DNA of 64,000 bases from Micromonospora luteifusca. Lineage in GTDB: Bacteria > Actinomycetota > Actinomycetes > Mycobacteriales > Micromonosporaceae. Under the pieces are notes generated by a model. The model had not been told where the DNA came from, did no database searches, and was given only the letters and a program-made list of their open reading frames with translations. This document shows positions 11,001 through 24,222 of the stretch, one piece after another (the stretch's first letter is position 1; each line of letters begins with the position of its first letter). A program made the translations under genes and the position numbers. The stretch covers positions 496,001 through 560,000 of the forward strand of contig NZ_JAFBBP010000001.1 in NCBI RefSeq assembly GCF_016907275.1, read 5' to 3'.

Positions 11001-11965
11001 AGGCCCTCCTCGTCTCCGGTGTAGACCGGCAGGGTGGCGGCGACCTTGGTGTTGCCGGCGGCGTCGGTGTGCCGGATCACGCCGTTGCGGGAGGTGTGCA
11101 GCACGCCCCGGTCCGGCAGGACGGTGAGGCTCATCGGCTCGCCCGTTTCGGCGGCGCCCTTGGCCAGCTCCACCTGCTGGAAGCTGCTGTTGACGGTGGC
11201 GCCACAGTCGGCGCCGACCGCGCCGGACGCGGTCATGATGCCGCCGAGCAGGTGCTGACGGAAGTTCGCCTCGGTGAACGACGCGTCGGTGTGGCCCAGG
11301 CCGGTGTACCAGGCCCGGCCCCCGGAGTAGTTCTGGCACCAGGAGATCGGGTGGTCGGCCCCCATGCTGCCGCCGGTGTAGGTGCTCTCGTCCAGGGTGG
11401 CCAGCACGTGCGCGTTGCCCCGGGGGTTGGTGCGGTAGTTGTACAGCTCGTCGAACCGGCTCCACCGCTGCGGCAGCGTCGCGGTGGACGGGTGCACCTG
11501 GTCGGCGACCTTGACGGTGACGGTCTGTTCGGCCGGGTGCGAGGCGAAGTACGCCCCGACCAGCCCGCCGTACCAGGGCCAGTCGTACTCGGTGTCGGAG
11601 GCGGCGTGGACGCCCACGTACCCGCCGCCGCCCTGGATGTAGCGCTCGAACGCGGCCTGCTGCGCGGCGTTGAGCACGTCACCGGTGGTGGACAGCCAGA
11701 TCACCGCGGCGAACCGGTCCAGGTGGGCGTCGGTGAACTGGGCAGCGTCCTCGGTGGCCTCGACGGTGAAGCCGTTGGCGGCGCCGAGCTGCTGGATGGC
11801 GGTGATGCCCGGGGTGATGGATCCGTGCCGGAAGCCGGCGGTCTTGCTGAAGACCAGCACGGTGAACGGTGCGGCGCTGGCCGTGGGCGGCACGGCGACG
11901 ATGCCGCCCGCCACGAGGATCGCGCTCAGCGCGACGCCGAGCCACGATCTCAGGGATCTGCGCAC
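8033..11965 (-). CDS. Secreted ThuA / PQQ-type sugar dehydrogenase-like / PKD / CBM6 / discoidin protein
   Basis: About 1,310 residues. A signal peptide (VALSAILVAGGIVAVPPTASA) is followed by a ThuA/glutamine-amidotransferase-like domain at ~35-245 (VLVFSKTAGFRHGSI, GGGYVGVHAASDTEYDWPWY, GLGHTDASF). Next is a six-bladed soluble glucose/sorbosone dehydrogenase-like propeller at ~265-710 (GLQGIKADPNFATNRWVY, GFRNPFRMSVD, MDMEFGPDGALYVLDYG). Then come a PKD domain (~725-810), a CBM6-like module (RQAEHFGDSSGVQV...DIDEFTL) and two F5/8 type C (discoidin) domains, each with LARxxxAxxxS and DPQWIxVDxG features. GTG at 11965 is chosen because AAAGGA precedes it; an ATG at 12031 lacks a ribosome site. 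Homologous ThuA-GDH fusions act on complex glycans outside the cell, but the substrate is unknown. It is unusually large for a single secreted protein. Confidence 0.9.
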   Translation of the reverse strand: MRRSLRSWLGVALSAILVAGGIVAVPPTASAAPFTVLVFSKTAGFRHGSITPGITAIQQLGAANGFTVEATEDAAQFTDAHLDRFAAVIWLSTTGDVLNAAQQAAFERYIQGGGGYVGVHAASDTEYDWPWYGGLVGAYFASHPAEQTVTVKVADQVHPSTATLPQRWSRFDELYNYRTNPRGNAHVLATLDESTYTGGSMGADHPISWCQNYSGGRAWYTGLGHTDASFTEANFRQHLLGGIMTASGAVGADCGATVNSSFQQVELAKGAAETGEPMSLTVLPDRGVLHTSRNGVIRHTDAAGNTKVAATLPVYTGDEEGLQGIKADPNFATNRWVYAYYAPPLSTPGGGAPATGTPAEFAVWDGVNRLARFTVNADNTINLGSETLILNVPTSRGMCCHVGGDMDFDAAGNLYLSTGDDTNPFDSAGFTPIDERAGRNPAFDAQRTSANSNDLRGKVLRIKPSAAGGYTIPAGNMFAPGTARTRPEVYAMGFRNPFRMSVDKATGIVYLGDYGPDAGTADPNRGPAGNVEFARIDKPGFYGWPYCTARNDAYNDYTFPSGPSGPKFNCAGGPVNNSPNNTGITQLPPAISAWLPYGGSGSPPEFTGGGLSPMGGPVYRYDPNNTSAVAFPEYYDGTYFAGEFGRRWIKNIKLDPAGQPLKINPFPWTGTQVMDMEFGPDGALYVLDYGTGWFNGDANSALYRIEYARTGRAPRPVVSATPTSGTAPLTVAFSSAGTLDPDGDPFTYAWDFDNNGTTDSTAANPSFTYTTNGTRSPTLTVRDTTGKTATASVVVTVGNSAPVVTVNTPLNGQTFNFGDAVPFTVTVADAQDGAINCARVKVNYVLGHDSHGHQLGSVQGCTGVIQTSADGEHDTAANIFGIIDAEYTDLGGGGQPPLTTHTQAVLQPRVRQAEHFGDSSGVQVVAGAAGHGGAAVGYVDNNDWISFRPYNLTGIQSFSARVGAPAGGGGTLELRVDSPTGPLVGSATVVPTGGYATFATVTGGVTAPTGTRTLFLVFKGTGPYFDIDEFTLSTSPGGPGPDPDPPTGNLAQGKPARASSLEGAYGAANAFDGAVGTRWSSAFSDPQWIDVDLGATYSLNRVKLTWEAAYGSGYQIQTSPDGVNFTTIRTVTGGDGGVDDLTGLTGSGRFVRLLGTTRGTAWGYSLFEFEVYGATGGPTGPGTNLLLNKPTSTSSNEGADVAGARAVDGSLTTRWSSTFSDPQWIRVDFGTSTAIGRVKLNWEAAYSSAYQIQTSTDGTTWTTVKTVTGADGGVDEHSGLGANGRYLRIYGTARGTGYGHSLWELEAYAS

Positions 11966-12188
11966 GATGGTCCTTTCGCGGTGCGAGGACGGCGTGCGCC
12001 GATCACGCCTGGCGGTGGTGGGACGAGACATGCGAATGCATCGTTGCGTTCGAACCGGGGGCGCGTCAAGCGTTCTCCCACCATCCGTGAGAGCGTTATC
12101 TCCGCAGGTGGAGGCGACTGTGCGCAGGGAGATCGAATAACGGTTTTCGGGCCATGAACCACGTGGCGGGCCCCGATGCCGTCAGCTC

Positions 12189-13649
12189 TCAGCGACCGCC
12201 CGCGACCAACTCGGCGATCATCCCCTCGCAGCTGCGGACGACGACCTGGGCCCCACGCCGCTGTGCCAACGGAAGCAGGGGGTCCTCCGCCCGGTCCCGC
12301 CATCGCCACTGCGCGTCGGCGGCGACTTCCCAGAGCCGCTGCACGGTCGCCTCATGCTCGACACCGAGGCGGGCGGCCAGTCCCACCCCGTTACCGCCGA
12401 CGAGCCGCCGCGCCTCGGCGGCCGACTCGGCGTCGAACCCGAGCCGGGCGTTGCGCAGCGCCACCAGCAGGCGCAGCTCCCGGAACTCGTGGGCACCGGC
12501 GAGGATCCGCTCGACCGCGCCGACCAACTCCTCAGAACCCCGGGTGGGCTCGGCCCGCAGCAGCGTCTCCACTGCGGCCAACGCCGACCGGGCCTTCAGG
12601 GTGTCGCTGCGATCGATGAAACAGCGTGTCACCGACTCACGCAGCTCGGTGAGACCGCTGCGCCGAATGAGCTCGGCAGAGAGCTTCACCCGGCTGTCGA
12701 AACCACTGCGCACCAGTGTGGCCGCCAGCCGGACACCGAAGACCCCGAGCCGATCCAGCAGCGCGGCGCGCGTCTCGGTCTCCAGCCGTACCGGCAGCTC
12801 ACCAAGGAGGAAGCGGTCAGCGGAGATCAGGTGGACGTCCAGCTCCGCCCTGGGCACCTGGGCCAGGGACGCGAGCGCGGCGAAGTCCGATTCACCGAGC
12901 ATCCTGCCCGCCAGGCCGATCATTCCGCTGCACGCCACGACGTTCACGCTGAGCGCGCTCACTCGCGGATCACGGTAATGCCGGCGGGCGAGCTGACGGG
13001 CCGTGAGCAGGCCGTCGATCCGGCCTCCGCCGGTCTCATCCGCCCGGGACAACACCATGATCACGTTGACCGGTGCGGCCTGCCCGACGGCGCTGTCCCG
13101 GCCGGACTCCAGCAGCCGCAGATCGCTGTCGCGCGCATCGCGGGTCAGGTACAACACCGCGTCCGCGTCCCGCAGCACCCGCTCCAACACCGGCGCCCGC
13201 CCCTGCTCCACACTGCCGGTGACCGCCGGGGTGTCGATAAGCGTGACCTGCCGCAGCGCCCGCGTCGGCCACTGCACCACGATGTCGCGGACGTCCCCCG
13301 CGCCCCAGCCGAGATCCACCCGCAGCCCGGTCGCCGACTTGACCACCGTCAACTCCTGCGGCGGCTGACCGGCCGGGTAGGCGGTCGCCCGCGGGGCGGC
13401 GCCGTCCTCGTACCAGGTGAACACGCCGTCCGCCCTCTCGACCGGCGCGACCTCCTCGCCCATCAGCGCGTTGAGGATCGTCGACTTGCCGGATCGCCAG
13501 GGGCCGGCGACCGCGATCCGCAGCGGTTGCTCCAACCGGGCGACCTGATGCCGCAACTGCGCGACTGCCCGCGGATCGTCCTGGTAAAGATCGATAGCCT
13601 GGTGCAGCAGACCCCAGGCCGCCTCGTCCAGGCGCAGCCCCACGGTCAT
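12189..13649 (-). CDS. iniC: IniC-like dynamin-family GTPase
   Basis: A 486-residue dynamin-like GTPase. The G1/P-loop GPWRSGKST is at residues 49-57, the G3 motif is DTPAVTG and the G4-like motif is LSRAD. The C-terminal half is helical and typical of the bacterial dynamin stalk (for example SALAAVETLLRAEPTRGSEE, EFRELRLLVALRNARLGFDAE). Length and order match mycobacterial IniC (about 490 residues), the third gene of the isoniazid-inducible iniBAC operon. The ATG overlaps the IniA stop (ATGA at 13646-13649), so translation is coupled. Bacterial dynamins remodel membranes; IniA/IniC are induced by cell-wall stress in mycobacteria. Here I see the family and operon; the stress role is inference. 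Confidence 0.88.
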   Translation of the reverse strand: MTVGLRLDEAAWGLLHQAIDLYQDDPRAVAQLRHQVARLEQPLRIAVAGPWRSGKSTILNALMGEEVAPVERADGVFTWYEDGAAPRATAYPAGQPPQELTVVKSATGLRVDLGWGAGDVRDIVVQWPTRALRQVTLIDTPAVTGSVEQGRAPVLERVLRDADAVLYLTRDARDSDLRLLESGRDSAVGQAAPVNVIMVLSRADETGGGRIDGLLTARQLARRHYRDPRVSALSVNVVACSGMIGLAGRMLGESDFAALASLAQVPRAELDVHLISADRFLLGELPVRLETETRAALLDRLGVFGVRLAATLVRSGFDSRVKLSAELIRRSGLTELRESVTRCFIDRSDTLKARSALAAVETLLRAEPTRGSEELVGAVERILAGAHEFRELRLLVALRNARLGFDAESAAEARRLVGGNGVGLAARLGVEHEATVQRLWEVAADAQWRWRDRAEDPLLPLAQRRGAQVVVRSCEGMIAELVAGGR

Positions 13650-15502
13650 GCCTGCGGCTCCAACAGCAGCGGGGCCGAACGGGCGGCGGTCAACTGCTGA
13701 GCCTGCTCGTAGAGCGCCGCCAACCGGGTCATCTTCAGGCGGATCTCGCGCTGCCGCTGCTCGCGCAGCGAGGCATCGGTGTCGGCCTCCTGCTTGGCAC
13801 TTCGGAACGACTGGACGATCGCCTCCTGAAGCTCCTCGGTCAGCCCCGTGAAGTGGTCCCGCAGCATCCGCTGCACCTGCCGTGCGGCGTCCCGGCAGTC
13901 ACGGATCATCCGGACGAAGAAGTCGTCGACATGCCGCTGGATGGCCGTCTTGACGGTCGCCTGGCGACGACGGAGCAACTGCTTGCTCTCGTCGCGGATG
14001 CTCTTGCCGCCGAACAGCGCCCCGATGCCGACCGAGACCGGGTTGATCATCGGCATCCCGGCCAGTGTGGTCGCCAGACCGAACATCAGCATCCCGCCGT
14101 ACGAGCCCTTCATGCCGGTGAACAACTTCTGGCCGGTGGTGAACCTGTCGATCGTCGGCAGTTGCAGCTCCGGCAGTCGCTCGCCGATGTCGTCCGGCAT
14201 CGTCATCGACCAGGGCGGCAGCACGTCGTAGCCGTACCGGTCGAAGTTGGCGGCCACCCGGCGGGCGATCCAGTCGCAGCGCTGGATCAGCCACTCGTGG
14301 TTTGCCTCCGCGGCCTCCACCAGGCTCCGCTCCAGCCAATCCTGGAAGGTGTCCCAGGCGACCAACGGATCGGCGGTGTCGAACGCCTCGTCCACGGTCC
14401 GGAGGATCTGCCGGGTCCGGTCACGAAGGTCGTACTCGATGTCGGAGAGCAGGTCGGCGATCTCGTCGCTGAGAATGTTCTGCCACCGGGTCGAGCAGCG
14501 ACGCAGCTCGTCGACCTCGCGCTGCGCCGCGTGCAGCCGGGAGATCGGGCCCGACTGCTCCTCGGCCTCCTGGGTCGCCAGCTCGGCACGCAGCGGCGCC
14601 GCCAACTGCTCCACCACCGTCCGCGCCACCGTCTGCACCGACGCCCGGGCCAACTGGTCGGCCTTGCCGGCCAGGTCCCGCTGCAGTCGGGCGATCAGCA
14701 CGGGAAAACCGGACTCGGCGTTGAGGCCCCGGTCATCGGCCGCGGCAGCACGCAGCCGCAGCGCCGCCGAGACCGGGATCAGCGCCGCCGGTACCCCGGC
14801 TTCGGCCAGGTGCTGACGATTGCGCTCGGCGACCGCCCGCCAGTCCGCCACCAGATCGGTCTTGCTCTGCACCACCACCACATTCGGGTGCGAGCGCATG
14901 ACGTGCAGCAACATGTTCAGCTCGGCGACCGACAACTCCCGGGTGGAGTCGGTGACCAGCAGCACGGTGTCCGCCCGGGCGGGAGCAGCGACCGAGGCGG
15001 CGCCGCCGATACCGGTGACCTCGTCGGTGCCGGGAGTGTCCACCAGCACCAGCCCGGCGCCGAGCAGGGCGCGGGGCACCCCGATCTCGACGTACGCCGG
15101 GCCACCGCCCGGCCGACGTCCGATCATGCCGGCCACGCTCTCCGCGACCTGGTTGAGCGCCACCGGGGTCCGCTCGACGGCGCCCTCGACCGCAGTGCCG
15201 GACGGACGACCGGGGGCTGGTGGCGAAGCCTGGGCCACCGCGACGGACGGAGCCTCGGCATGCCGCACCACGGTCGGCAGGACGGTCGTGCGGCCGTCGC
15301 CGACCGGGCAGGCCGGCGCGTTGATGATCGCGTTGATCAGCTGACTCTTGCCCTGGTTCGGCTCACCGATGACCAGGACGCGCAGCGTCGGGTCCAGCAG
15401 TTGGGCACGTTTCTGCCGGACCGTCTGGAGCAGGTCACCTCGACCGTGTGCACTGCACGTACGGGCGATGTCGTCCAGCACGTCCAACCAGATCCCGGCC
15501 AT
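13646..15502 (-). CDS. iniA: IniA-like dynamin-family GTPase
   Basis: A 618-residue dynamin-like GTPase. P-loop GEPNQGKSQ is at residues 46-54, G3 is VDTPGTDE and G4 is QSKTDL. A long helical stalk follows, with heptad-rich segments. A hydrophobic patch (GGMLMFGLATTLAGMPMINPVSVGIGALFGG, near residues 470-500) corresponds in position to the membrane-inserting paddle or lipid-interacting loops of IniA. The length is close to mycobacterial IniA (640 residues), whose structure shows a membrane-fission dynamin. ATG at 15502 is used; a GTG one codon upstream is equally possible. The gene lies between iniB and iniC on one strand, separated from iniB by a hairpin. Confidence 0.9.
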   Translation of the reverse strand: MAGIWLDVLDDIARTCSAHGRGDLLQTVRQKRAQLLDPTLRVLVIGEPNQGKSQLINAIINAPACPVGDGRTTVLPTVVRHAEAPSVAVAQASPPAPGRPSGTAVEGAVERTPVALNQVAESVAGMIGRRPGGGPAYVEIGVPRALLGAGLVLVDTPGTDEVTGIGGAASVAAPARADTVLLVTDSTRELSVAELNMLLHVMRSHPNVVVVQSKTDLVADWRAVAERNRQHLAEAGVPAALIPVSAALRLRAAAADDRGLNAESGFPVLIARLQRDLAGKADQLARASVQTVARTVVEQLAAPLRAELATQEAEEQSGPISRLHAAQREVDELRRCSTRWQNILSDEIADLLSDIEYDLRDRTRQILRTVDEAFDTADPLVAWDTFQDWLERSLVEAAEANHEWLIQRCDWIARRVAANFDRYGYDVLPPWSMTMPDDIGERLPELQLPTIDRFTTGQKLFTGMKGSYGGMLMFGLATTLAGMPMINPVSVGIGALFGGKSIRDESKQLLRRRQATVKTAIQRHVDDFFVRMIRDCRDAARQVQRMLRDHFTGLTEELQEAIVQSFRSAKQEADTDASLREQRQREIRLKMTRLAALYEQAQQLTAARSAPLLLEPQA

Positions 15503-15559
15503 CACCGCACCAAGTGTGCTGATTTCGGCTCAATTAGCAAGAGGGACCGGAAATGGAAT

Positions 15560-15602
15560 CGGAGGGGGCCGGATCGCCCGAGACGATCCGACCCCCCGCT
15601 CC
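15560..15602 (-). terminator. Hairpin between iniB and iniA, possible attenuator
   Basis: The 113-bp gap between iniB and iniA holds a bulged inverted repeat. The left arm begins cggagggggccggatcg at 15560; the right arm ends cccccgctccg at 15602 after cgatccg. It could stop part of the transcripts after iniB, giving more IniB than IniA/IniC. There is only a modest T-rich tract downstream on the minus strand, so full termination is uncertain. Confidence 0.5.
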
Positions 15603-15617
15603 GACCGGAAATTCCCG

Positions 15618-16502
15618 TCAGAGCAGACCGCCGGTGAGGCCGAGCAGGCCGTGGTCGGACGAGCCGTCCGAGTCGCCCAGCACACCGTCGGTGACGCCGC
15701 CGGTCACATCACCAACCGTGCCGGTGACACCGGGGACGAGACCGTCCACCTGGTGCGTCACCCCGCCCACCACGGACGGCACGTCGAGCGGCGGAACGAC
15801 GCCGCCGACAACGCCATCACCGTGCCCGAGGCCCAGCCCGCCCAGGGTGTCCTCGACACCGAGGGAGCCGACGACGCCATTGATCTGACCGTGGGCACCG
15901 GAGAGGACGCCGCCGGTCAGGTCGCCACCGAGCAGACCCGCGTCGGTGCCGTGCAGCAGGCCGGTCGAGTCGCCGACCACCCCGGTGACGTCCCCGAGCA
16001 CCGGGTCGGCGATCCCGTCCACCGGCTGCACCACGTCGGCGTCGAGGGTGTGCGCCACGTCGGCCACACCGGTCAGGTCGGTGTCAAGGCCGTACGGGCC
16101 GACGCCCAGGCCGATCCCCGGCAGCACGGTGACTCCCGCGGCGGCCGCCGACGGGTCGACCGCGATGGCACCGAGCACACCGGCCTTGACGTCCACGCCG
16201 TACGGGGAACTCGTGACGCTGATCTGCTGCGCCACGCTCTGCAACTGGCCCACCACGTCGGTGGTGTCGGTGACCAGGGGGTCCAGCCCGAGCTGCCCCA
16301 CGGATGGAACCAACGCCCCGAGTCCCTGTCCCGGCGCGTAGTCGACGACCAACGGCACGACGTCCTGCACGTCGGCCGCCGTGATGTCGGTCAGCCCCGC
16401 TGCCTGCAGCGCACCCTCGGGGTCGAGGTCGAAGGCCGACCGGGCGTCGGGGTTCGTCAGCAGGTCGAGCACGAAGTCGTGGAGGGTCTGTTGCGAGTCC
16501 AT
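15618..16502 (-). CDS. iniB: IniB N-terminal-domain protein, Gly/Val/Asp-rich
   Basis: A 294-residue protein. Its N-terminal ~55 residues (QTLHDFVLDLLTNPDARSAF, PEGALQAAGLTDITAADVQD) match the IniB N-terminal domain. This domain is seen in the first protein of mycobacterial iniBAC and resembles leaderless adaptor-like helical domains. The remainder is low-complexity, made of imperfect GxVTGxV/GDVTGG/GVLGD repeats rich in Gly, Val, Asp and Leu with no aromatic core, as in the Gly-rich tail of mycobacterial IniB. There is no classical signal peptide. ATG at 16502 has a GAGGAG ribosome site. First gene of the operon; it diverges from the Hsp70/IniR operon. Its molecular role is unknown even in mycobacteria. 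Confidence 0.88.
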   Translation of the reverse strand: MDSQQTLHDFVLDLLTNPDARSAFDLDPEGALQAAGLTDITAADVQDVVPLVVDYAPGQGLGALVPSVGQLGLDPLVTDTTDVVGQLQSVAQQISVTSSPYGVDVKAGVLGAIAVDPSAAAAGVTVLPGIGLGVGPYGLDTDLTGVADVAHTLDADVVQPVDGIADPVLGDVTGVVGDSTGLLHGTDAGLLGGDLTGGVLSGAHGQINGVVGSLGVEDTLGGLGLGHGDGVVGGVVPPLDVPSVVGGVTHQVDGLVPGVTGTVGDVTGGVTDGVLGDSDGSSDHGLLGLTGGLL

Positions 16503-16798
16503 GTGCCGGTTCTCCTCGGATGTGGCGTCGGCGGGTGTCGTACGTCGACAGTGACGCTATTGCCGGGCCCGCCCCCGGGCATCGGGGCTGAGCCCGCATC
16601 CGGGCCGGTTGAACTAGGGGCACCGCCACCTCGTACGTTAGGGGGACAGGGGGAAACCGGACCGGCGAGATTAGGGTCCCGACCAGGGACTGATCTCTGG
16701 TACGAACGTAGGAGCCCGCGGGGTTCGCCGGGGGTGGGTCGTCGGACAGCACCGACGCCATCGCCACCGACCGGCCGACCCACGGGGAGAGAAGAGAG
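16503..16798. promoter_or_regulatory. Divergent control region between iniB and Hsp70-iniR operons
   Basis: A 296-bp region with no gene. It must hold both promoters. Visible features: a TACGTT motif on the plus strand at 16634-16639 and its inverted copy AACGTA at 16705-16710, two GGGGGA tracts separated by CA near 16641-16653, and a CCAG...CTGG inverted pair near 16683-16700. These are candidate sites for the IniR-like regulator encoded next door. I cannot assign -35/-10 boxes with confidence. Confidence 0.45.
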
Positions 16799-18061
16799 AT
16801 GCCGTACGTCCTGGGGATAGACATCGGAAGCACCAACACGGCTGCCGCTGTCGCGCGGCGGCACGGCACGACCTGGACGCGTCCCGAGGCCGTCCCGCTG
16901 CACGTCGACTCGACTGTCGTACCGTCGGTGCTGTGCCTGTCGGAGGACGGCTCGCTGCACGTGGGCGAGCCCGCGACCGACGACGGCAGCCGCACCACGC
17001 GGGACTTCGTCCACCGCATCGGTGACGACGTGCCCCTGCTGCTCGGTGGCGAAGCGTGCCCGCCGCAGACGCTGACCGCGGAGCTCGCCGCGTGGGTGGT
17101 GGATCGGGTCCACGCCCTGGAAGGCGGTCCCGCCGAGGCGATCGTGCTCAGCCACCCCGCGGGGTGGCGCCCCTACCGGCGAGAGGTGCTGCACCGGGCG
17201 CTGTCCGGCTTCGGGCTGCGTCACGTGACGTTGCTGCCCCGCACGGTAACGGTGGCGGAGAGCCACGCGGCCCGTGGGTTCGCCGGCACCACTGCCGTCG
17301 TCTACGCCCTGGGGGGCAACAGCTTCGAGGCGGCACTGGTGCGTCGAACCCCGCGCGGCACGTACGAGACATTCGGTACCCCCCAGGGGCTCGACTCGAT
17401 TGGCGGCGCCGACTTCGACGAGGCGCTGGCCGGCTACGCCCGTACGACGCTGGCCCGGGAGTTGGCCACCACCGCACGCCGCGGCACCCAGGCCGCGTTG
17501 CGCGGGCTGCGCGCGGAATGCGACCGGGTCAAGCGGGTGCTGACCGTCGATCTGACCGCCGACGTGGTGCTGGCCCTGCCGAACGGTCCGGCCCGGATAC
17601 CGGTGACCCGGGCGCAGTTCGAGCAGATGATCCGCCCGACGGTGCAGGCCACCGTCGACCTGCTGCTGCGGGCCGTGCAGAGTGCCAACCTGACGCCGGC
17701 GCAGCTCGACGGCGTCCTGTTGGCGGGCGGTTCGACCCGCGTTCCGCTCGTCACCGAGCTGATCAGCGCGGCACTCCCGGTGCCCGTCGAGGTGGAACCG
17801 GACTCGCAACTGACCGCCGCCACCGGGGCGGCGATGGCCGCCTGCCAGGTGGTGTCGCCGCGCCCGCGCCCGCCGGCGCCGGTCCGCGACCCGGCCCCGG
17901 TGAGTGGTGCCGGGCGGGCCAGCGTTCCGGCTCCGCGCCCCCACCACGACACCACCGTCCCAGGTGCTCCGCCACCGCGGCCACCGGTCCGGGTCCTCCC
18001 ACTGGAACTGCCGAAGCCGTCCCGCCTGGTGCTGGCCCGCGGCCGGGGACGCGAAGGATGA
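16799..18061 (+). CDS. Short Hsp70-like actin-fold ATPase
   Basis: A 420-residue Hsp70-family protein that has only the nucleotide-binding domain. Phosphate-1 motif GIDIGSTNTAAAVA is at residues 5-18. The segment VVYALGGNSFEAALV takes the place of phosphate-2, GLDSIGGADFDEAL follows, and the adenosine motif is LLAGGSTRVPLV. After residue ~355 there is a Pro/Arg/Ala-rich tail instead of the ~250-residue substrate-binding domain of DnaK, so it is not a general chaperone. Such truncated Hsp70s are common in actinobacteria beside signalling genes. The ribosome site is an AG-rich run directly upstream. It overlaps or closely abuts iniR and is the first gene of that operon. It may act as a nucleotide-dependent partner of the IniR-like protein (inference). 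Confidence 0.88.
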   Translation: MPYVLGIDIGSTNTAAAVARRHGTTWTRPEAVPLHVDSTVVPSVLCLSEDGSLHVGEPATDDGSRTTRDFVHRIGDDVPLLLGGEACPPQTLTAELAAWVVDRVHALEGGPAEAIVLSHPAGWRPYRREVLHRALSGFGLRHVTLLPRTVTVAESHAARGFAGTTAVVYALGGNSFEAALVRRTPRGTYETFGTPQGLDSIGGADFDEALAGYARTTLARELATTARRGTQAALRGLRAECDRVKRVLTVDLTADVVLALPNGPARIPVTRAQFEQMIRPTVQATVDLLLRAVQSANLTPAQLDGVLLAGGSTRVPLVTELISAALPVPVEVEPDSQLTAATGAAMAACQVVSPRPRPPAPVRDPAPVSGAGRASVPAPRPHHDTTVPGAPPPRPPVRVLPLELPKPSRLVLARGRGREG

Positions 18062-18066
18062 CTTCA

Positions 18067-20631
18067 ATGATCATGAATGGCATCGCCGAGTCGGGGCTGA
18101 CGCTGGACAAGGGGCCGCAGGCACTGCTGGACGCGGTCGGGCAGGACCCGACCGGCCCACTCACCGTTGGCATCGCCGGCCCAGGTGGGCACGGAAAGAC
18201 CGCACTGCTCGCGGAGTTGGCGCGGATCCACCAGCGGGCCGGGATCACCGTACGCGCGGGCGCACCGGAGCCCGGTGAACCGGTCGACCCCGACACACTG
18301 GTCCTGGTCGACGACGCGCACCTGCTCGACGACGCACGGATCGGGGTGCTCCTGCGTCTGGTCGCCACCCGTCGGCACCGGCTGGTCGTCGCACACCGGC
18401 CGTGGCCCCGGTCAGCGGCGCTCAGTGAGCTGGTCGACTCTCTCCGGCGGGACGGGCAGGCCGTGCTCCTCACGCCGTTCACCCGGGAGCAGACCGCCGC
18501 CTACCTCGCCGCCACGCCGGAGCTGGGCCGGCACGGCGACCTGGTCGACTTCGTACACACCCAGACCTCCGGCATACCCCGGGACGTCGAACGGCTGGTC
18601 CGCGGCCTGGCCGGCGCGGAGACCCCGACCGGCACGGTGGTCGCCCCACCCCGGTCCGCCGTCGGAGAGTTCGCGGCGGACCTGGACGTGCAACCCGCCG
18701 CGGTACGACGAATGCTGCTCGCCGTCGCGGCCGGTGGGCTGCTGCCGGTGAGCATGCTCGGCACGCTCCTGGGCCGGGAGCCGGCGGCGGTGGACGAACT
18801 GATCGCCGCGACGCGGGCGGCCGGGCTGCTCGGCGCCGACGGCCGGCTCGCGCCGATCGTCCGGCGGGCCGTCACGACGCTCAGCCCCACCACCGACCGG
18901 ACCGCGGTCTGGCGCCGGCTCACCGACTTGCAGCTCGCCCGGGGCGGCGCGGTGCTGCCGCTGGTCCGCTCCCTGCTGGCGGTGGGCGCGCTCGGCGACT
19001 GCCCGGCTCCGACCCTGGCAGCCGCAGCGGGTGAGGCGCTGGCCGACGAGCCGGCGTTCGCGGCCGAGTTGTTCGCCGCCGCCACGGCGGCCGGACGGCC
19101 GGCGAGCGCCGAGCAGGCACTCGCCGCCGCGCTCGCCGGCAACCTCGACGACGCCCTGCGGCTGGCGGACCGCCTGCTGGCCACGGCCGCCCCGCCCGAG
19201 CGTGCCGAGGCGGCCGTGGTGGCCGCGACCGCCCTGGCGCATCGCGGTCACGTCGGTCGCAGCGTCGAGCTGTACCGATGGTCAGGCACCGCCTCGGCGG
19301 CGGCCTTCGCCACCGTCGGCGGCCTCGCCATGGGCGACCTGGGCGCCACCGCCGAGCCGCCGGCAGCCGAACCCACCGACGAACCGCCAACTTTGCACGC
19401 CAGCGCCGCCCGCCTGATGGCCGACGGGGTACGCGAGAGCGTGAGCGGCCCGCCGACCGCGGCGCTCTCGGCGCTCGTGCAGGCCGCCGCGCTGCTGGAG
19501 CCGGACGGGCGGGCGGCGCTCCTGCCGGACAGCCCGGCGGCGCTCGCCGCGTTGACCGCGGTGCACTGCGGTGAGCTGGAGATCGCCGAGCGGGTGCTGC
19601 ACCGGGCCCTGGGCGCCGGTGTCGGTGGCCCGCTGATGGCTCGCCGTCACCGGCTGTTGCAGGCCTGGATCCTGATGGTCCGTGGCGAGACGCACGCCGC
19701 GACCGAGCGCCTCGCCACGGTGACGCTCGACGGTCGGCAGTTGGAGTCACGCGACCTGCTCTTCGCCGCCGCGATCCGGATGGGCACCGGCCGGCGCAAC
19801 AGCGACCTCGGGGCGCTCAAGCGCGGCTGGGGGCAGGCGCTGGAGGCGGTGGTCCGCCACCCCGTCGACCTGTTCACGCTCCTGCCGCTGGGTGAGCTGG
19901 CCATCGCGGGCGCGCGGCTGGGTGACCTGGCCCGGCTCGAACCGTACCTGCGCGAGGGGCGCGCGCTGCTCGGCCGGCTCGGTGAACCACCATTGTGGAG
20001 TGTGCCGCTGCACTGGAGTGGGCTGCACGCCGCGATCCTCACCGGCGAGCCGGCCCGGGCCGACGAACACGTCGCCGCGCTGCTCGCCTCGGCGGACCAC
20101 AGCCGGTACGCCGCCGTGGTCGCCGCCGCCGCGGAGAGCTGGGTGGAGGTGCTGCGGGGCGTCGTCGACCCGGCCCGCGTGGAGGCCGCCGCCCGAGGGC
20201 TGCACGACACCGGGTTGTGCTGGGACGGTGCCCGCCTCGCCGGCCAGGCCGCGATCCGTACCGCGGACCGGCGGGCGATGACCACCCTGCTGGAGTGCGC
20301 CCGAGCGTTGCAGGGGCGACCGTCCGGCGGTCACGGCGGTCCGACGTCGACGACCACCGAGAGCACGACGCGGGCCGCCGGCCCGACCCAGCAGGGGCTC
20401 AGCGACCGGGAGTACGAGGTGGCCGAGCTGGTGCTGGCCGGGTTGACCTACCGGGAGATCGGCGATCGGCTCTTCATCTCGGCCAAGACGGTCGAGCACC
20501 ACGTGGCGCGGATGCGCAACCGGTTGAACTGCGCCAACCGCACCGAGTTGCTGGCTCTGCTGCGCACCATCGTCGCCGACCGGGCCAGCGACACCGCCGG
20601 GCAGCCGTGGCCGCAGCGGGCGACCCGATGA
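18067..20631 (+). CDS. iniR: IniR-like STAND ATPase with LuxR-type DNA-binding domain
   Basis: An 854-residue regulator. Walker A GPGGHGKT is at residues 38-45, Walker B LVLVDDAH has its acidic pair at 82-83, and a helical winged domain follows. Then comes a long alpha-helical TPR-like sensor region (residues ~250-740) and a LuxR helix-turn-helix at ~779-835 (LSDREYEVAELVLAGLTYRE, AKTVEHHVARMRNRL). Size, architecture and position beside iniBAC match mycobacterial IniR (Rv0339c, ~830 residues), described as the ATPase that activates iniBAC during envelope stress. The ATG at 18067 has GAAGG 9 nt upstream; the ATG at 18058 overlaps the Hsp70 stop but is too close to that site. The ligand in this organism is unknown; trehalose was reported for mycobacteria. 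Confidence 0.87.
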   Translation: MIMNGIAESGLTLDKGPQALLDAVGQDPTGPLTVGIAGPGGHGKTALLAELARIHQRAGITVRAGAPEPGEPVDPDTLVLVDDAHLLDDARIGVLLRLVATRRHRLVVAHRPWPRSAALSELVDSLRRDGQAVLLTPFTREQTAAYLAATPELGRHGDLVDFVHTQTSGIPRDVERLVRGLAGAETPTGTVVAPPRSAVGEFAADLDVQPAAVRRMLLAVAAGGLLPVSMLGTLLGREPAAVDELIAATRAAGLLGADGRLAPIVRRAVTTLSPTTDRTAVWRRLTDLQLARGGAVLPLVRSLLAVGALGDCPAPTLAAAAGEALADEPAFAAELFAAATAAGRPASAEQALAAALAGNLDDALRLADRLLATAAPPERAEAAVVAATALAHRGHVGRSVELYRWSGTASAAAFATVGGLAMGDLGATAEPPAAEPTDEPPTLHASAARLMADGVRESVSGPPTAALSALVQAAALLEPDGRAALLPDSPAALAALTAVHCGELEIAERVLHRALGAGVGGPLMARRHRLLQAWILMVRGETHAATERLATVTLDGRQLESRDLLFAAAIRMGTGRRNSDLGALKRGWGQALEAVVRHPVDLFTLLPLGELAIAGARLGDLARLEPYLREGRALLGRLGEPPLWSVPLHWSGLHAAILTGEPARADEHVAALLASADHSRYAAVVAAAAESWVEVLRGVVDPARVEAAARGLHDTGLCWDGARLAGQAAIRTADRRAMTTLLECARALQGRPSGGHGGPTSTTTESTTRAAGPTQQGLSDREYEVAELVLAGLTYREIGDRLFISAKTVEHHVARMRNRLNCANRTELLALLRTIVADRASDTAGQPWPQRATR

Positions 20632-20674
20632 GGCGCACAGGTCTTGGACGCCGCCGCACCGGACGGAGCGGGAC

Positions 20675-22603
20675 GTGACGCGTAACGAGGTCCGGCTGAT
20701 CCGGACCAGACTGGTGGTGCTGGCCGCCGTGCTGATCACGCTCTGGTCGTACGCGGCCTACGTGAGCAGCCAGGACGTCATCGACCTGCTGCGTGTGCGG
20801 GCCCTGGCGGACAATCTGGGCCAACCACTCGACCGCCTGGTCCTGAGCCTGCAGACCGAACGCCGGGTCACCACCGAGACGATCGCCGGGGCCGCGCCGA
20901 CGGCGGTCCCGCTGGTCGGGGCACGCGAGGGCACCGACCGGGCCGCCGCCGAGGTCCGCGAGTTCAGCGAGGGCAGTGATCTTCGACTGCTCGGCGCCGG
21001 CGAGGTCCGCGACCGGGCCGTCGAACTGGTCCGACGGCTCGACAGCCTGGGCGCGATCCGCTCCCAGGTGGACGCCGGGCAGCTCGACCAGGCCGCGGCC
21101 CTCGACGGGTACGACCAGGTCATCGACATCGCCTTCCGGGTGTACGGCCCGGAGTGGGGCGCGTACGAGAGCGCGTTGGCCGCCGACACCCGCGCGGTGA
21201 TCGCGCTGGCCCGCGCCCGCGAGTTGCTCGCCCGGGAGGACACCCTGGTCAGCGCGGCCCTGACCGGTGCACGGCTCGGTGTCGACGAACGGCTTCGACT
21301 GAGCGAGCTCGTCAGCAACCAGCGGTTCGCGCGCACCGAGGCGGCGGCCGGGTTGGGCGTCGACGGGCAGGACGAGCATCAGCGGATGGCGACCGGCCCC
21401 GAGTTCGCGGGCCTGCTCGCCCTGGAGGACCGGCTGCTGCGCGCGGACACCGGCAACGCCCTGGCCGGGATCACCGCCCAGGCCTGGCGCGCCGCGGCGG
21501 ACGCCGCCCTCGACGCACTGCAGACACTTGTCACGACCACCGCCCGCAGCAGCGTCGAGCGGGCCACGCCGGGTGCCGCCGTGATCGTCGCGCGGACCGG
21601 CGGCGTGGTGGGGTTGGGTCTCATCGTCGTGCTCATGCTCCTGTTGAGTTGGGCGAGCACGGTCCGACGCCTGACCGACGAGCTGACCAGGCCGGACGTC
21701 AGTCCACCGCCTCCGGCTGTCCCGGCTGCCCCGGCGGCACCCGGCGGCACCTACGAGGAGCTGTTCCTGCGGCTCACCCGACGCAACCAGGTCCTGCTGC
21801 GCGACCAGCTCAGCCTGCTCGACGGGATGCAGCGCCGGGAGCGGTCCACCGAGGAGACCGGCGAGCTGTTCCAGCTCGACCACCTCAGCACCCGGATCCG
21901 GCGCAACGTGGAGAAGGTGATCGCCCTGGCCGGCGCGACGCCCGCGCGCCGCTGGCGGCGCCCGGTGCCACTGCTCGACGTCGCTCGCGGTGCGGTCGCC
22001 GAGGTACCGGACTACCACCGGGTCCTGATCGCCCCGCACTGGCCGTGGTCGATCACGGGTCCCGCCGTCACGGACCTCGTCCATCTGCTGTCCGAGCTGA
22101 TCGAGAACGCCCTCGCCTTCTCGCCGACGAAGACCACCGTCCGGGTCGCTGGCGAGCACCGACCGCAGGGGTGCGCCATCGTGGTCACCGACGACGGGCC
22201 CGGCCTGGACGCGTCCGCGCTGGCCGAGGCGAACCATCTGCTCAGCAACCCGCCGGACGGCCCGCCCACCGGGCCCGCGGGTCTCTACACCGTCGCCGTG
22301 CTCGGCGAGCGATGCGGCGCCCACGTCTCGCTGCGCCCCAGCCAGCGTGGTGGAACGTCCGCGGTCGTGCTCCTCCCGGCCCGGCTGGTCACGGTGAGCG
22401 ACACCGGACGTCGACCGGCCACCGCACCACCCGGCACCCCGTACCCGCCGGCCCGCGACGGCGCCGACCTGCCCGACCCGAGCGGCGACGGTGCGCTGCC
22501 CACACGGGTCCGCCAGGCCGGGCCGACCGGCCCCGAACACCGCAGGACCAGCCTCGACACGGTCGAGATACCGGTCGCGAGAACAGCGAGGAGACACCCA
22601 TGA
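20675..22603 (+). CDS. cvnA: Conservon sensor kinase-like protein (CvnA type) with NIT-like sensor
   Basis: A 642-residue membrane protein. TM1 is at residues ~10-30 (VVLAAVLITLWSYAAYVS). A ~270-residue extracytoplasmic helical region resembles the nitrate/nitrite-sensing NIT domain. TM2 is GVVGLGLIVVLMLLLSW. A cytoplasmic dimerisation helix contains a His in FQLDHLSTRIRRN, and a HATPase_c domain has N-box ELIENALAFSP, G1 DDGPGLD and a G2-like GLYTVAVLGERCG. The C-terminus is a Pro-rich tail. CvnA proteins are the sensor-kinase-like subunits of actinobacterial conservons, which resemble eukaryotic G-protein signalling. The GTG start has GGAGCGGGA upstream and lies 43 bp after iniR. The stop overlaps the next start (ATGA). 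Confidence 0.88.
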   Translation: MTRNEVRLIRTRLVVLAAVLITLWSYAAYVSSQDVIDLLRVRALADNLGQPLDRLVLSLQTERRVTTETIAGAAPTAVPLVGAREGTDRAAAEVREFSEGSDLRLLGAGEVRDRAVELVRRLDSLGAIRSQVDAGQLDQAAALDGYDQVIDIAFRVYGPEWGAYESALAADTRAVIALARARELLAREDTLVSAALTGARLGVDERLRLSELVSNQRFARTEAAAGLGVDGQDEHQRMATGPEFAGLLALEDRLLRADTGNALAGITAQAWRAAADAALDALQTLVTTTARSSVERATPGAAVIVARTGGVVGLGLIVVLMLLLSWASTVRRLTDELTRPDVSPPPPAVPAAPAAPGGTYEELFLRLTRRNQVLLRDQLSLLDGMQRRERSTEETGELFQLDHLSTRIRRNVEKVIALAGATPARRWRRPVPLLDVARGAVAEVPDYHRVLIAPHWPWSITGPAVTDLVHLLSELIENALAFSPTKTTVRVAGEHRPQGCAIVVTDDGPGLDASALAEANHLLSNPPDGPPTGPAGLYTVAVLGERCGAHVSLRPSQRGGTSAVVLLPARLVTVSDTGRRPATAPPGTPYPPARDGADLPDPSGDGALPTRVRQAGPTGPEHRRTSLDTVEIPVARTARRHP

Positions 22604-23049
22604 CGTCCGCAGTGGTCACCAACGACAGCCTGACCGGCGCCCTGGACCGCCTGGTCGACCGAGTGCACGGCGCGGAGTTCGCCGTCGTGCTCTCCCCTGA
22701 CGGGCTGGCCCTCGGCGGTTCCCGGCAGGTGGAGGCGAAGCTGGCCGAGCAGATCTCCGGAGTGGTCGCCGGCCTGATCGCGTTGGGGTTGGCCGCAACC
22801 CGGACCTGCGACGCGGGCGGTCTACGCCAGGTCGTGGTGCAGATGTCGCGAGCGTTCCTGTTCATCGCCACCATCCCGAACGGAACGATCCTCACCGTGC
22901 GGATCGCCGGTGATGACGTCGAGGTCGGCGACATGGCGTACGAGGTGGCGCTCTTCGTGGGGCAGGCCGAGCGGCACCTGCCGATCACCCTCGGACCGGC
23001 CTCCTCGGCGACGATCGGGGACACAGGTGTACACCAGCGGCACCGCTGA
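22600..23049 (+). CDS. cvnB: Roadblock/LC7-domain protein (CvnB type)
   Basis: A 149-residue protein. It is a single Roadblock/LC7 domain: VHGAEFAVVLSPDGLALGGS, a helix LAEQISGVVAGLIALGLAA, then strands RQVVVQMSRAFLFIATI and a C-terminal part (GDDVEVGDMAYEVALFV). In conservons this subunit binds the sensor and the small GTPase. It overlaps cvnA by four bases and cvnC by 23 bases, showing a tight operon. The last ~15 residues, read over the cvnC start, have no conserved features. Confidence 0.92.
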   Translation: MTSAVVTNDSLTGALDRLVDRVHGAEFAVVLSPDGLALGGSRQVEAKLAEQISGVVAGLIALGLAATRTCDAGGLRQVVVQMSRAFLFIATIPNGTILTVRIAGDDVEVGDMAYEVALFVGQAERHLPITLGPASSATIGDTGVHQRHR

Positions 23050-23407
23050 CGAGGCGTGGTACGACGACGACGCGGGCCCGGTCGCCCGGCCGTACACGAT
23101 GACCGGCGGGCGCACCGCGCCGGCCCGCGGTCAGTTCGACCTGATCTCACTGGTCGTCGCCCGACGGGCGGTCACGCCGCCCACACCGCTCTTCCCCGAA
23201 CAGGCACGGATCGTCGAGCTGTGTCACCATCCAGTGTCGGTGGCCGAAGTCGGCGCCGAACTGGACCTTCCACTGGGGACTGTCCGGGTGCTGCTCGGCG
23301 ACCTGCTCACGGCCGGGTTGATCGAGACGCACGACCCGCCGATGCTGTCGGAGCTGCCGACCGAGGACCTGCTCGAAGCGATACTCGTGGGGCTTCGCAC
23401 CCTGTGA
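23027..23407 (+). CDS. cvnC: DUF742 protein (CvnC type)
   Basis: A 126-residue DUF742 winged-helix-like protein. It has the usual WYDDDAGPVARPYTMTGGRT N-terminus, then the FDLISLVVARR strand and a compact helix-turn-helix-like core (VAEVGAELDLPLGTVRVLLG, DLLTAGLIETHDPP). GTG at 23027 is chosen because it includes the conserved N-terminal motif; it overlaps cvnB by 23 bp. In complete conservons the next gene is the Ras-like GTPase CvnD. Here the next gene is instead a CBM2-like membrane protein, so the GTPase is missing. Confidence 0.9.
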   Translation: MYTSGTADEAWYDDDAGPVARPYTMTGGRTAPARGQFDLISLVVARRAVTPPTPLFPEQARIVELCHHPVSVAEVGAELDLPLGTVRVLLGDLLTAGLIETHDPPMLSELPTEDLLEAILVGLRTL

Positions 23408-23481
23408 CAGGGCAGGTGCCAACCGCGATTCGAACGGATCGTCGGCGGGCATCCTGCGACGAACTGAAGGAGAGACAGGCA

Positions 23482-24222
23482 GTGCCGGCAACACCACCCC
23501 AGCCACGCCGTACCGTGGCGATCATCGTGCTGGACCGGATCGTGGCCCTGGTCACGGCCGCACGGCGGGTGCTCACCGGTCGGGACGACTTTTCGCGGGC
23601 CGCCTGGGTGGCCATGATCGCGGCGGTCGGGGTGCTGATCGTGACAGCCACCTCGATCATCGGGGTGCTGCGTACGCCGGAGGAGCTGACCCCGGTGGCT
23701 CTCGACCCGCCACCGTCCGTCGAGCAGGTGGGCACACCGCCGCCCGGCACTTCCCGGCCTCAGGCGCGACCGGCAGTCACCAGCCCGGCGCTGTCCGCTC
23801 CCCCGCCAGCTGCCTCGGCCACCGCGGTCCCACCGACCGCCGGTGCGTCGACTCGACCCACTCCGACCGGTTCGACGGCTCCACCCGCGTCGGCGCCCCT
23901 GAACGCCGAGTTCACCATCTCGGACAAGGCCCTGCTCAGTTACGGTGCGGCCGTGACGATCAGCAATCCCGGGCCGGGTTCGGTGCCGCAGTGGACGCTG
24001 GCCGTCACCCTGCCCCGGGAGTCTCTGCGGATCAGCGCGGTCGAGGGCGCCCGGGCCAGCCGTGACGGTGCCGTGTGGACGTTCGTGCCGGACGGAACCG
24101 CCGGCCAGGTGCCGGGCAGCGCTTCGGTCCGGGTGACGTTCCGGGTCAACGGTTCGCCCGCTGGTGCCGCCCCCGAGTCGTGCACCATCGACGGCGCCGC
24201 CTGCACCGGTCTGTCGAACTGA
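23482..24222 (+). CDS. Membrane-anchored protein with CBM2-like ectodomain
   Basis: A 246-residue protein. A short cytoplasmic N-terminus leads to one TM segment (AAWVAMIAAVGVLIVTATSIIGVL), then a ~75-residue Pro/Ala/Thr/Ser linker. A ~105-residue C-terminal beta-sandwich resembles family-2 carbohydrate-binding modules (VTISNPGPGSVPQWTLAVTL, ASVRVTFRVNGSP), with the flanking Cys pair in CTIDGAAC. The start GTG at 23482 has a strong AGGAGAG site 7 nt upstream; a GTGA overlap with cvnC at 23404 offers a longer alternative. It takes the position where the conservon GTPase is expected. It could sense or hold cell-wall or exopolysaccharide glycans for this envelope-stress operon (inference). Confidence 0.75.
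   Translation: MPATPPQPRRTVAIIVLDRIVALVTAARRVLTGRDDFSRAAWVAMIAAVGVLIVTATSIIGVLRTPEELTPVALDPPPSVEQVGTPPPGTSRPQARPAVTSPALSAPPPAASATAVPPTAGASTRPTPTGSTAPPASAPLNAEFTISDKALLSYGAAVTISNPGPGSVPQWTLAVTLPRESLRISAVEGARASRDGAVWTFVPDGTAGQVPGSASVRVTFRVNGSPAGAAPESCTIDGAACTGLSN

Follow-up and report, generated by a model that had tools for sequence, protein, structure and literature searches.

The 64-kb window analyzed here, positions 496,001-560,000 of a Micromonospora luteifusca contig (NZ_JAFBBP010000001.1), carries at positions 12189-24222 an iniB-iniA-iniC gene set on the minus strand, back to back with hsp70-iniR-cvnA-cvnB-cvnC-CBM2 on the plus strand. This locus is a variant of the known iniBAC-IniR system and a real conserved unit. 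Judging from its genes and the promoter elements they share, it is probably an IniR-controlled envelope-stress locus of the iniBAC kind, in which a decayed Hsp70-like protein (a pseudo-Hsp70) would be the partner and the cvn/CBM2 genes would be a Micromonosporaceae add-on. An earlier note, made from the letters alone, had named all of these genes and their divergent arrangement; Pfam and NCBIfam matches confirmed each of them, and only the start of the CBM2 gene had to be corrected.

We examined the linkage of these genes in related genomes. IniR was found in 71 of 150 genomes of the family and IniA in 73, with all 71 among the 73 when the lists were compared by eye. Neighborhoods of 20 kb were taken from 40 of the 71 IniR-positive family genomes and from 28 genomes beyond the family, out of 60 IniR-positive genomes of the order; genes in relatives were called with a simple codon-position script and transmembrane (TM) segments by Kyte-Doolittle hydropathy. 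The earlier note had proposed such a survey, with rare adjacency in relatives to be taken as a sign of chance linkage, and adjacency was not rare. Counting pairs no more than 6 kb apart, center to center, IniR and Hsp70 were neighbors in all 23 Micromonosporaceae class I loci, IniR and IniA in 20, and IniA and Hsp70 in 21; in the other two (L105 and L117) the contig ended before iniA was reached. The corresponding counts in the 28 other loci of the order were 23, 18, and 24. Among 45 named loci (both 10-kb flanks were available for 29; L103 was not a relative), 39 had enough sequence upstream of iniR to hold the set, and hsp70, iniB, iniA, and iniC were present in 39 of 39, Streptoalloteichus (L093) and Actinophytocola (L097) included. 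The conserved order and the neighbor counts rule out chance adjacency, and the claim that iniBAC, hsp70, and iniR form one conserved unit stands.

The arrangement was followed into more distant lineages. We infer family f2 to be Mycobacteriaceae from the fact that its IniR proteins pass the equivalog cut-off; equating family f3 with Pseudonocardiaceae is a guess. Four f2 loci (L144-L146 and L148) have a TM-bearing Hsp70 between iniB and iniR, and in two of them, L144 and L146, another follows iniR. The iniB-iniR interval of L147 holds no Hsp70, and the Hsp70 of L149 is located past iniC. Seventeen loci of the family, termed class II (IniR 34-39% identical), hold IniR, an IniB-like protein recognized by its N-terminus only, IniA, IniC, and a TM-bearing Hsp70 together but in other orders. 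Twelve class III loci have a dynamin pair without a convincing IniR, and a large Hsp70 was present in the same piece in 11, less than 300 bp from the dynamins in 6 and 1.7-10.3 kb away in 5, a rate that is biased because these loci were second IniA matches picked when Hsp70 matches on the same contigs were already in view for most of them (G417, G430, and G454 were left out).

Across the class, 70 of 388 genomes gave dynamin matches in a search with a 13-row IniA alignment. Forty regions were picked by IniA alone, 34 of them from 33 of the 42 out-of-order genomes (G009, G011, G023, G055, G113, G161, G307, G308, and G369 were left out) and 6 from within the order. In 29 of the 40, an Hsp70 was no more than 3 genes away from a dynamin (25 of the 34 and 4 of the 6; L284 was weak, at 50 bits). 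As an internal control, 31 of the 239 genes within 3 of a dynamin encoded an Hsp70, versus 1 of the 202 genes further away. IniR matched at more than 100 bits in 15 of the 40 regions; of the 29 regions with Hsp70, 14 had such a match and 15 had none. With profiles built from Micromonospora, no cvn or CBM2 match was obtained in the 40 loci. The linkage is layered, in that a dynamin pair with an Hsp70 consisting only of the nucleotide-binding domain (NBD) is found class-wide, with or without iniR, iniBAC divergent from hsp70-iniR is found order-wide, and the cvn/CBM2 genes were seen in Micromonosporaceae alone. Of the partners tested, Hsp70 accompanies the dynamins most widely; IniR comes second, and the cvn set is a distant third. 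We found no report in the openly licensed literature of an Hsp70 partnership with dynamin pairs across the class. In the f20 loci L265-L270, IniA/IniC homologues have no Hsp70 nearby; a 165-215-aa protein encoded there matches the IniR profile weakly (20-24 bits) and is possibly a reduced regulator.

The regulator itself (18058-20631, plus strand; 857 aa) has a STAND/AAA ATPase, a helical middle, and a LuxR-type helix-turn-helix (NF038181, 4.1e-140; PF00196, 2.7e-15). It scored 468.7 bits, below the NF038181 equivalog cut-off of 750, over positions 6-826 of the 827 in the profile, and its best segment was 95% identical to M. arborensis IniR. It is a full-length homologue below the equivalog line, hence "IniR-like". 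Fourteen IniR proteins in 200 genomes of the order passed the cut-off, all from f2.

The region between iniB and hsp70 (16503-16798), which is the divergent promoter region of iniBAC and hsp70-iniR-cvn, is strongly conserved in Micromonospora, with blocks in 22 aligned sequences, the window included. In relatives the core of this region consists of two direct TTAGGGG repeats (TTAGGGG-n-TTAGGGG, 8-bp period), and TGGTACGAA often comes next toward hsp70. The candidate operator in the window is at 16636-16654 (plus strand) and reads TTAGGGGG, then ACAGGGGG at the 8-bp period; a second TTAGGG copy is at 16671-16676 (plus), and the conserved TCTCTGGTACGAACGTAGGAG at 16694-16714 (plus), on the hsp70 side, may function as an extended -10-like element. 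There are just two TTAGGG in the 64-kb window, and both are inside this gap. TTAGGGG was present on either strand in 73 of 74 called gaps (those among 108 loci scanned in which script-called iniB and Hsp70 were divergent within 1200 bp), and as a tandem with a second half of at least TTAGGG in 19. TTAGGGG occurred at 4.39 per kb in the gaps, compared with 0.129 per kb in the remaining intergenic sequence of these loci.

We also searched whole genomes for the exact tandem. In the 150 family genomes there were 28 copies in 23 genomes (1 with a reversed-pattern control), and 21 of the 28 fell in the iniB-hsp70 gap as placed by IniR, IniA, and Hsp70 match coordinates. In the 200 order genomes there were 26 in 21 genomes (control 2), with 21 on target; the two surveys share f1 genomes. 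All 14 exact tandems in f2 sit 140-168 bp upstream of an IniB-domain match; in nine cases this is an iniB close to iniA, and in five it is an IniB-domain gene with no such linkage. At the iniR locus lay 6 of 6 order-survey tandems in f3 and 1 of 6 in f1. At the five unlinked sites (G188:C1:1723926, G003:C1:1107508, G258:C1:3571955, G159:C23:476225, and G231:C32:21730, all f2) the tandem lies 140-157 bp upstream of a second IniB-domain gene, and these five genes are predicted to be extra IniR targets. TTAGGGG pairs with 15-18 bp spacing precede hsp70 in L144-L146 and L148 of f2, and precede iniR in L147 and L149 of the same family, which have no hsp70 there. Across the 12 class III loci, which are without IniR, a single TTAGGGG was present. 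Several class II loci have a TTAGGGG just ahead of a gene for a small acidic protein, behind iniA or facing hsp70 as in L130; one example is L125:15905, ahead of the gene at 15179-15847 (minus), a possible further regulon member.

The TTAGGGG direct-repeat box is thus put forward as a candidate IniR operator, and a shared promoter element fits common control of iniBAC and hsp70-iniR by IniR. In M. tuberculosis an IniR ChIP (chromatin immunoprecipitation) peak lies upstream of iniBAC, the sole target of IniR by ChIP and RNA-seq; the parts of that paper on these two experiments give no binding motif (PMC5760070). No report of a TTAGGGG box with iniB was found in the openly licensed literature.

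The Hsp70-like protein (16799-18061, plus strand; 420 aa) has an NBD fold by Pfam (PF00012, 1.3e-27), by phmmer to DnaK, by its structural model, and by Foldseek, in which DnaK gave the best PDB matches to the model (E about 1e-27), and the GGS nucleotide motif is present. The mean predicted local distance difference test (pLDDT) score of the model was 81.6, with 76-96 per 10-residue block over residues 1-350 and less than 50 in the tail (361-420), which is Pro-rich and disordered. A substrate-binding domain is absent, the Pfam profile being matched up to position 377 of 599 and the rest of the protein being the low-confidence tail. In the alignment, DnaK residues K70, E171, D194, and T199 correspond to V71, R148, A170, and S175. 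We surveyed these positions in 142 Hsp70 proteins, giving 148 rows, with gaps counted in n. None of 38 Micromonospora rows keeps K70, E171, or D194 (two are gapped at K70); at position 199, 23 rows have S and 15 have T. All four residues are kept in 17 of 17 class II rows and in the Hsp70 of L181 (f3). The 10 class III rows keep K70, E171, D194, and T199 in 10, 9, 10, and 10; class-wide, the 14 distant rows keep them in 13, 14, 14, and 14, and the 15 rows with strong dynamins in 12, 12, 15, and 13. From this pattern, the catalytic residues appear to have decayed to differing degrees in the class I lineage of the order while the position of the gene was kept. Because the NBD fold is kept, the substrate domain is absent, and the catalytic residues are lost, we consider the Micromonospora protein a pseudo-Hsp70; decay with gene position kept makes a regulatory or structural role likely and hydrolysis unlikely. 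The "ATPase switch" that the earlier note had made of this protein does not hold for Micromonospora, where the catalytic residues have been replaced.

Two adjoining dynamin-like GTPases are encoded behind iniB: IniA (13646-15505, minus strand; 619 aa) and IniC (12189-13649, minus; 486 aa), and iniC adjoins iniA in relatives too. The earlier note had called both intact. IniA has a near-complete Dynamin_N match (PF00350, 1.6e-12, positions 1-164 of 168), and its GTPase motifs are in place, with G47, Q51-S54, K215, and D217 invariant in a 13-row alignment, but IniC is best matched at the P-loop part alone (PF00350, 9.5e-09, 1-27 of 168). IniB (15618-16502, minus; 294 aa) has the IniB N-terminal domain, at 70.5 bits against a cut-off of 40 (NF038175, 8.5e-20), followed by a low-complexity tail. 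Between iniB and iniA is a stem-loop (15563-15597, minus) with a near-perfect 16-bp stem, and 2 of 200 shuffles folded equally well (z-score -2.91). Long stems of differing sequence recur at this place in 69 related loci, where the best 60-nt hairpin had a median of -40.5 kcal/mol versus -31.65 in 506 other gaps; 15% of those 506 gaps were as low as the iniB-iniA median. The stem-loop is possibly an attenuator or an mRNA stabilizer and would fit the high amount of IniB suggested for the mycobacterial system in parts of PMC5760070. No Rfam family was matched at the gathering threshold in the window.

Several observations weigh against an IniR-controlled, Hsp70-partnered locus as we describe it. 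The IniR of the window scores under the NCBIfam equivalog cut-off. Close relatives account for many of the 74 gaps, and such gaps are not independent of one another; one locus (L157) is without the box, and the second half-box in the window itself is degenerate. Exact tandems were found in 23 of 150 family genomes versus IniR in 71, and 7 of the 28 copies lie elsewhere (G521:C10, G529:C14, three in G498, G400:C23, and G483:C12); the three exact copies of TTAGGGGGTTAGGGG in G498 occur in a genome of the same genus with no IniR match. The box pair ahead of the second Hsp70 lies on the other strand in L144 and L146. Gene order differs in L149, L181, and the class II loci, and no Hsp70 is near the dynamins in 11 of the 40 class-wide loci, including L252, which does have IniR. 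Decay of the Hsp70 is uneven outside Micromonospora, since f2 keeps D194 in 10 of 10 rows, E171 in 2, K70 in 1, and T199 in 1, and among the 25 other class I rows from Micromonosporaceae, E171 survives in 9, T199 in 3, and D194 in 2. Finally, 4 of 13 genera lack the cvn set and others have only pieces of it, so that it cannot be essential to the core.

The genes behind iniR encode, all on the plus strand, a CvnA-like sensor histidine kinase with a NIT sensor domain (20675-22603; PF08376, 2e-33; PF02518, 3.1e-10), a CvnB-like Roadblock/LC7 protein (22600-23049; PF03259, 7.8e-14), a CvnC-like DUF742 protein (23027-23407; PF05331, 1.9e-33), and a one-TM protein of 246 aa with a CBM2-like C-terminal domain (23482-24222; PF00553, 2.5e-06, above cut-off), the TM segment being taken from the hydropathy of the 91%-identical L059 protein. 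Among the named relatives with a CvnA, its identity is 53-88%. The Hsp70 and IniR genes share 4 bp, as do those of CvnA and CvnB, and the IniR-CvnA and CvnC-CBM2 gaps are 43 bp and 74 bp. The likeliest CBM2 start is the GTG at 23482, which has an AAGGAG site ahead of it; a start at 23056 was rejected as a reading out of frame through cvnC. CvnA, CvnB, and CvnC stand in the standard conservon order. The Ras-like GTPase CvnD is missing behind cvnC, where the CBM2 gene and then a GDPD-type phosphodiesterase gene are found instead, and the CvnD profile had no match in loci L059-L183 except in a separate full conservon in L121. In a survey of 37 DUF742 loci from six genomes (36 with a profile match), a P-loop CvnD was next door at 0 of 5 iniR-linked loci versus 30 of 31 unlinked loci; the window genome has six DUF742 genes above cut-off in 7.16 Mb, and the other five each adjoin a CvnD. 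The earlier note had spoken of a conservon; because CvnD is absent, a full one is ruled out, and the set is instead conservon-derived and without its G protein. Nor is the set a general component of the system: members adjoining iniR were seen only in Micromonosporaceae, patchily, as subsets in 9 of the 13 genera examined, and no cvn gene was found beside iniR in the 28 other loci of the order with Micromonospora-built profiles, which may miss distant forms, or in the 40 class-wide loci.

How the set came to be there can be read in more than one way. It could be a hitch-hiker, a degenerating conservon that has lost cvnD and merely lies behind iniR, and we regard this as a serious if minority possibility. 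GTPase-less conservon fragments are in print in general terms, in the parts of PMC4316618 that bear on them; losses are piecemeal in Micromonosporaceae (CvnB only, CvnA and CvnC only, CvnB and CBM2, or none); and no cvn gene was found beside iniR in the 28 other loci of the order. Set against this, most Micromonospora loci of the clade of the window have all four genes, closely spaced, the subsets recur across genera, and the flanking genes turn over faster than the cassette. The linked DUF742 proteins also group together, with 2 changes on a 51-row tree versus 15.5 in shuffles; a single clade was not rejected (p 0.283), though no more than 4% of bootstrap trees showed one origin.

Rather doubtful is the idea that IniA and IniC stand in for CvnD, with the Roadblock/DUF742 pair regulating the dynamin GTPases. 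The GTPases encoded beside the set are indeed the dynamins, CvnD is missing at the linked loci but present at nearly all unlinked ones, and Roadblock alone is kept behind iniR in nine Micromonospora loci (L074, L075, L079, L081-L083, L095, L096, and L101). However, L118-L120, L123, and L143 keep CvnA and CvnC without Roadblock, many iniBAC loci have neither of the pair, and a CvnD from one of the five other DUF742 loci in the genome could act in trans. Least likely of all is that the Hsp70-like protein is the stress sensor, a membrane-tethered NBD with an ectodomain, split in Micromonospora into a soluble NBD and the CBM2 protein. A TM segment is indeed predicted in the Hsp70s of f2, class II, class III, and several f3 loci, where the protein also continues into an additional C-terminal part; 2 of 3 class III proteins scanned have PD40 or Kelch propellers. 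However, the Micromonosporaceae loci L105, L106, L112, L113, L115-L118, and L122 lack both a TM segment in Hsp70 and the CBM2 gene, and L107 has both, a distribution that does not fit replacement of a lost Hsp70 membrane part by the CBM2 protein. All 10 class-wide Hsp70s scanned were NBD-only, and three of them have WD40 propellers after the domain. Such fusions are encoded beside dynamin pairs in L271, L272, and L287, and their propellers match eukaryotic propeller families with very high scores.

The locus shares with the mycobacterial iniBAC-IniR system, as described in the parts of PMC5760070 that concern it, the order iniB, iniA, iniC, an IniR homologous over its full length, and an IniB N-terminal domain above cut-off; TTAGGGG boxes lie upstream of iniB in both groups. 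A dnaK-like gene adjoining iniR is in print for M. smegmatis in the same parts of that paper; the earlier note had known of no description of the combined unit. The Micromonospora locus differs in that no iniB* separates iniB from hsp70 and iniR, which face it directly, in the lower IniR score, in the cvn/CBM2 genes behind iniR, and in an Hsp70 with neither a TM segment nor the DnaK catalytic residues. It resembles conservons, or actinobacterial G protein systems (PMC13343842, PMC8510531, and PMC4316618), in its CvnA-like sensor kinase, Roadblock CvnB, and DUF742 CvnC in standard order, and departs from them in the lack of CvnD, in a CBM2-TM protein in place of CvnE/CvnF, and in its place directly behind iniR on the same strand. 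The NBD fold and GGS motif are common to DnaK/HscA chaperones, from which the protein is set apart by the missing substrate-binding domain and the four substitutions. Two adjacent dynamins with a stress or membrane role are also known as BDLP, Streptomyces DynA/DynB, and Campylobacter DLP1/2; those of the window differ in being coupled to an NBD-only Hsp70. The nearest printed hint of such coupling, in the parts of PMC6104087 that touch on it, is a DnaJ-like domain on the dynamin adjoining Nostoc BDLP1.

Under the IniR-controlled model that we favor, IniR, a MalT-like STAND activator encoded with its partner Hsp70-like protein, would sense an envelope-stress signal, perhaps by way of a sugar as proposed for mycobacteria. 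It would then bind the TTAGGGG boxes in the shared promoter region, activating iniB-iniA-iniC in one direction and its own operon, hsp70-iniR-cvn, in the other (autoregulation). IniA and IniC would act as a membrane-remodeling dynamin pair that repairs or reshapes the membrane, and IniB may be made in excess by way of the iniB-iniA stem-loop. The pseudo-Hsp70 more likely regulates IniR or the dynamins, by binding nucleotide or as a scaffold, than works as a hydrolyzing chaperone, and might gate either through its nucleotide-bound conformation. In Micromonosporaceae, CvnA and the CBM2 protein would add envelope input through their NIT and CBM2 domains, with the Roadblock/DUF742 pair working without its usual small GTPase. 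The three-way signaling model of the earlier note survives in its core, without the ATPase switch and without a complete conservon.

More speculatively, the NBD-only Hsp70-like protein could be a dedicated and ancient regulator of paired dynamins across Actinomycetes, a bacterial counterpart of Hsc70 working with membrane-scission machinery, to which IniR was added as transcriptional control; the Micromonosporaceae conservon would then have lost its small GTPase through rewiring to the dynamin-Hsp70 core. We offer this broader proposal tentatively and think it less probable than not.

The flanks of the locus vary. A 1332-aa multidomain protein of ThuA, GSDH, CBM6, and F5-F8 type C type is encoded at 8033-12031 (minus strand), adjoining iniC. 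Both this ThuA gene and the GDPD gene on the other flank are retained in no more than some of the closest species. A trehalose link through the ThuA-domain gene was considered and taken as coincidence, since the protein is large and multidomain and is not beside the locus in many relatives.

These comparisons bear on the role of the iniBAC dynamins and on controls beyond IniR, in that they single out the NBD-only Hsp70, which follows dynamin pairs even without IniR. The TTAGGGG box is a precise candidate for the IniR operator and lets the regulon be predicted, unlinked iniB-type genes included. The Micromonospora protein appears to be a natural case of an Hsp70 in which catalysis is lost and gene place is kept, and the conservon-like set without a G protein may be useful for asking what Roadblock and DUF742 proteins do alone.

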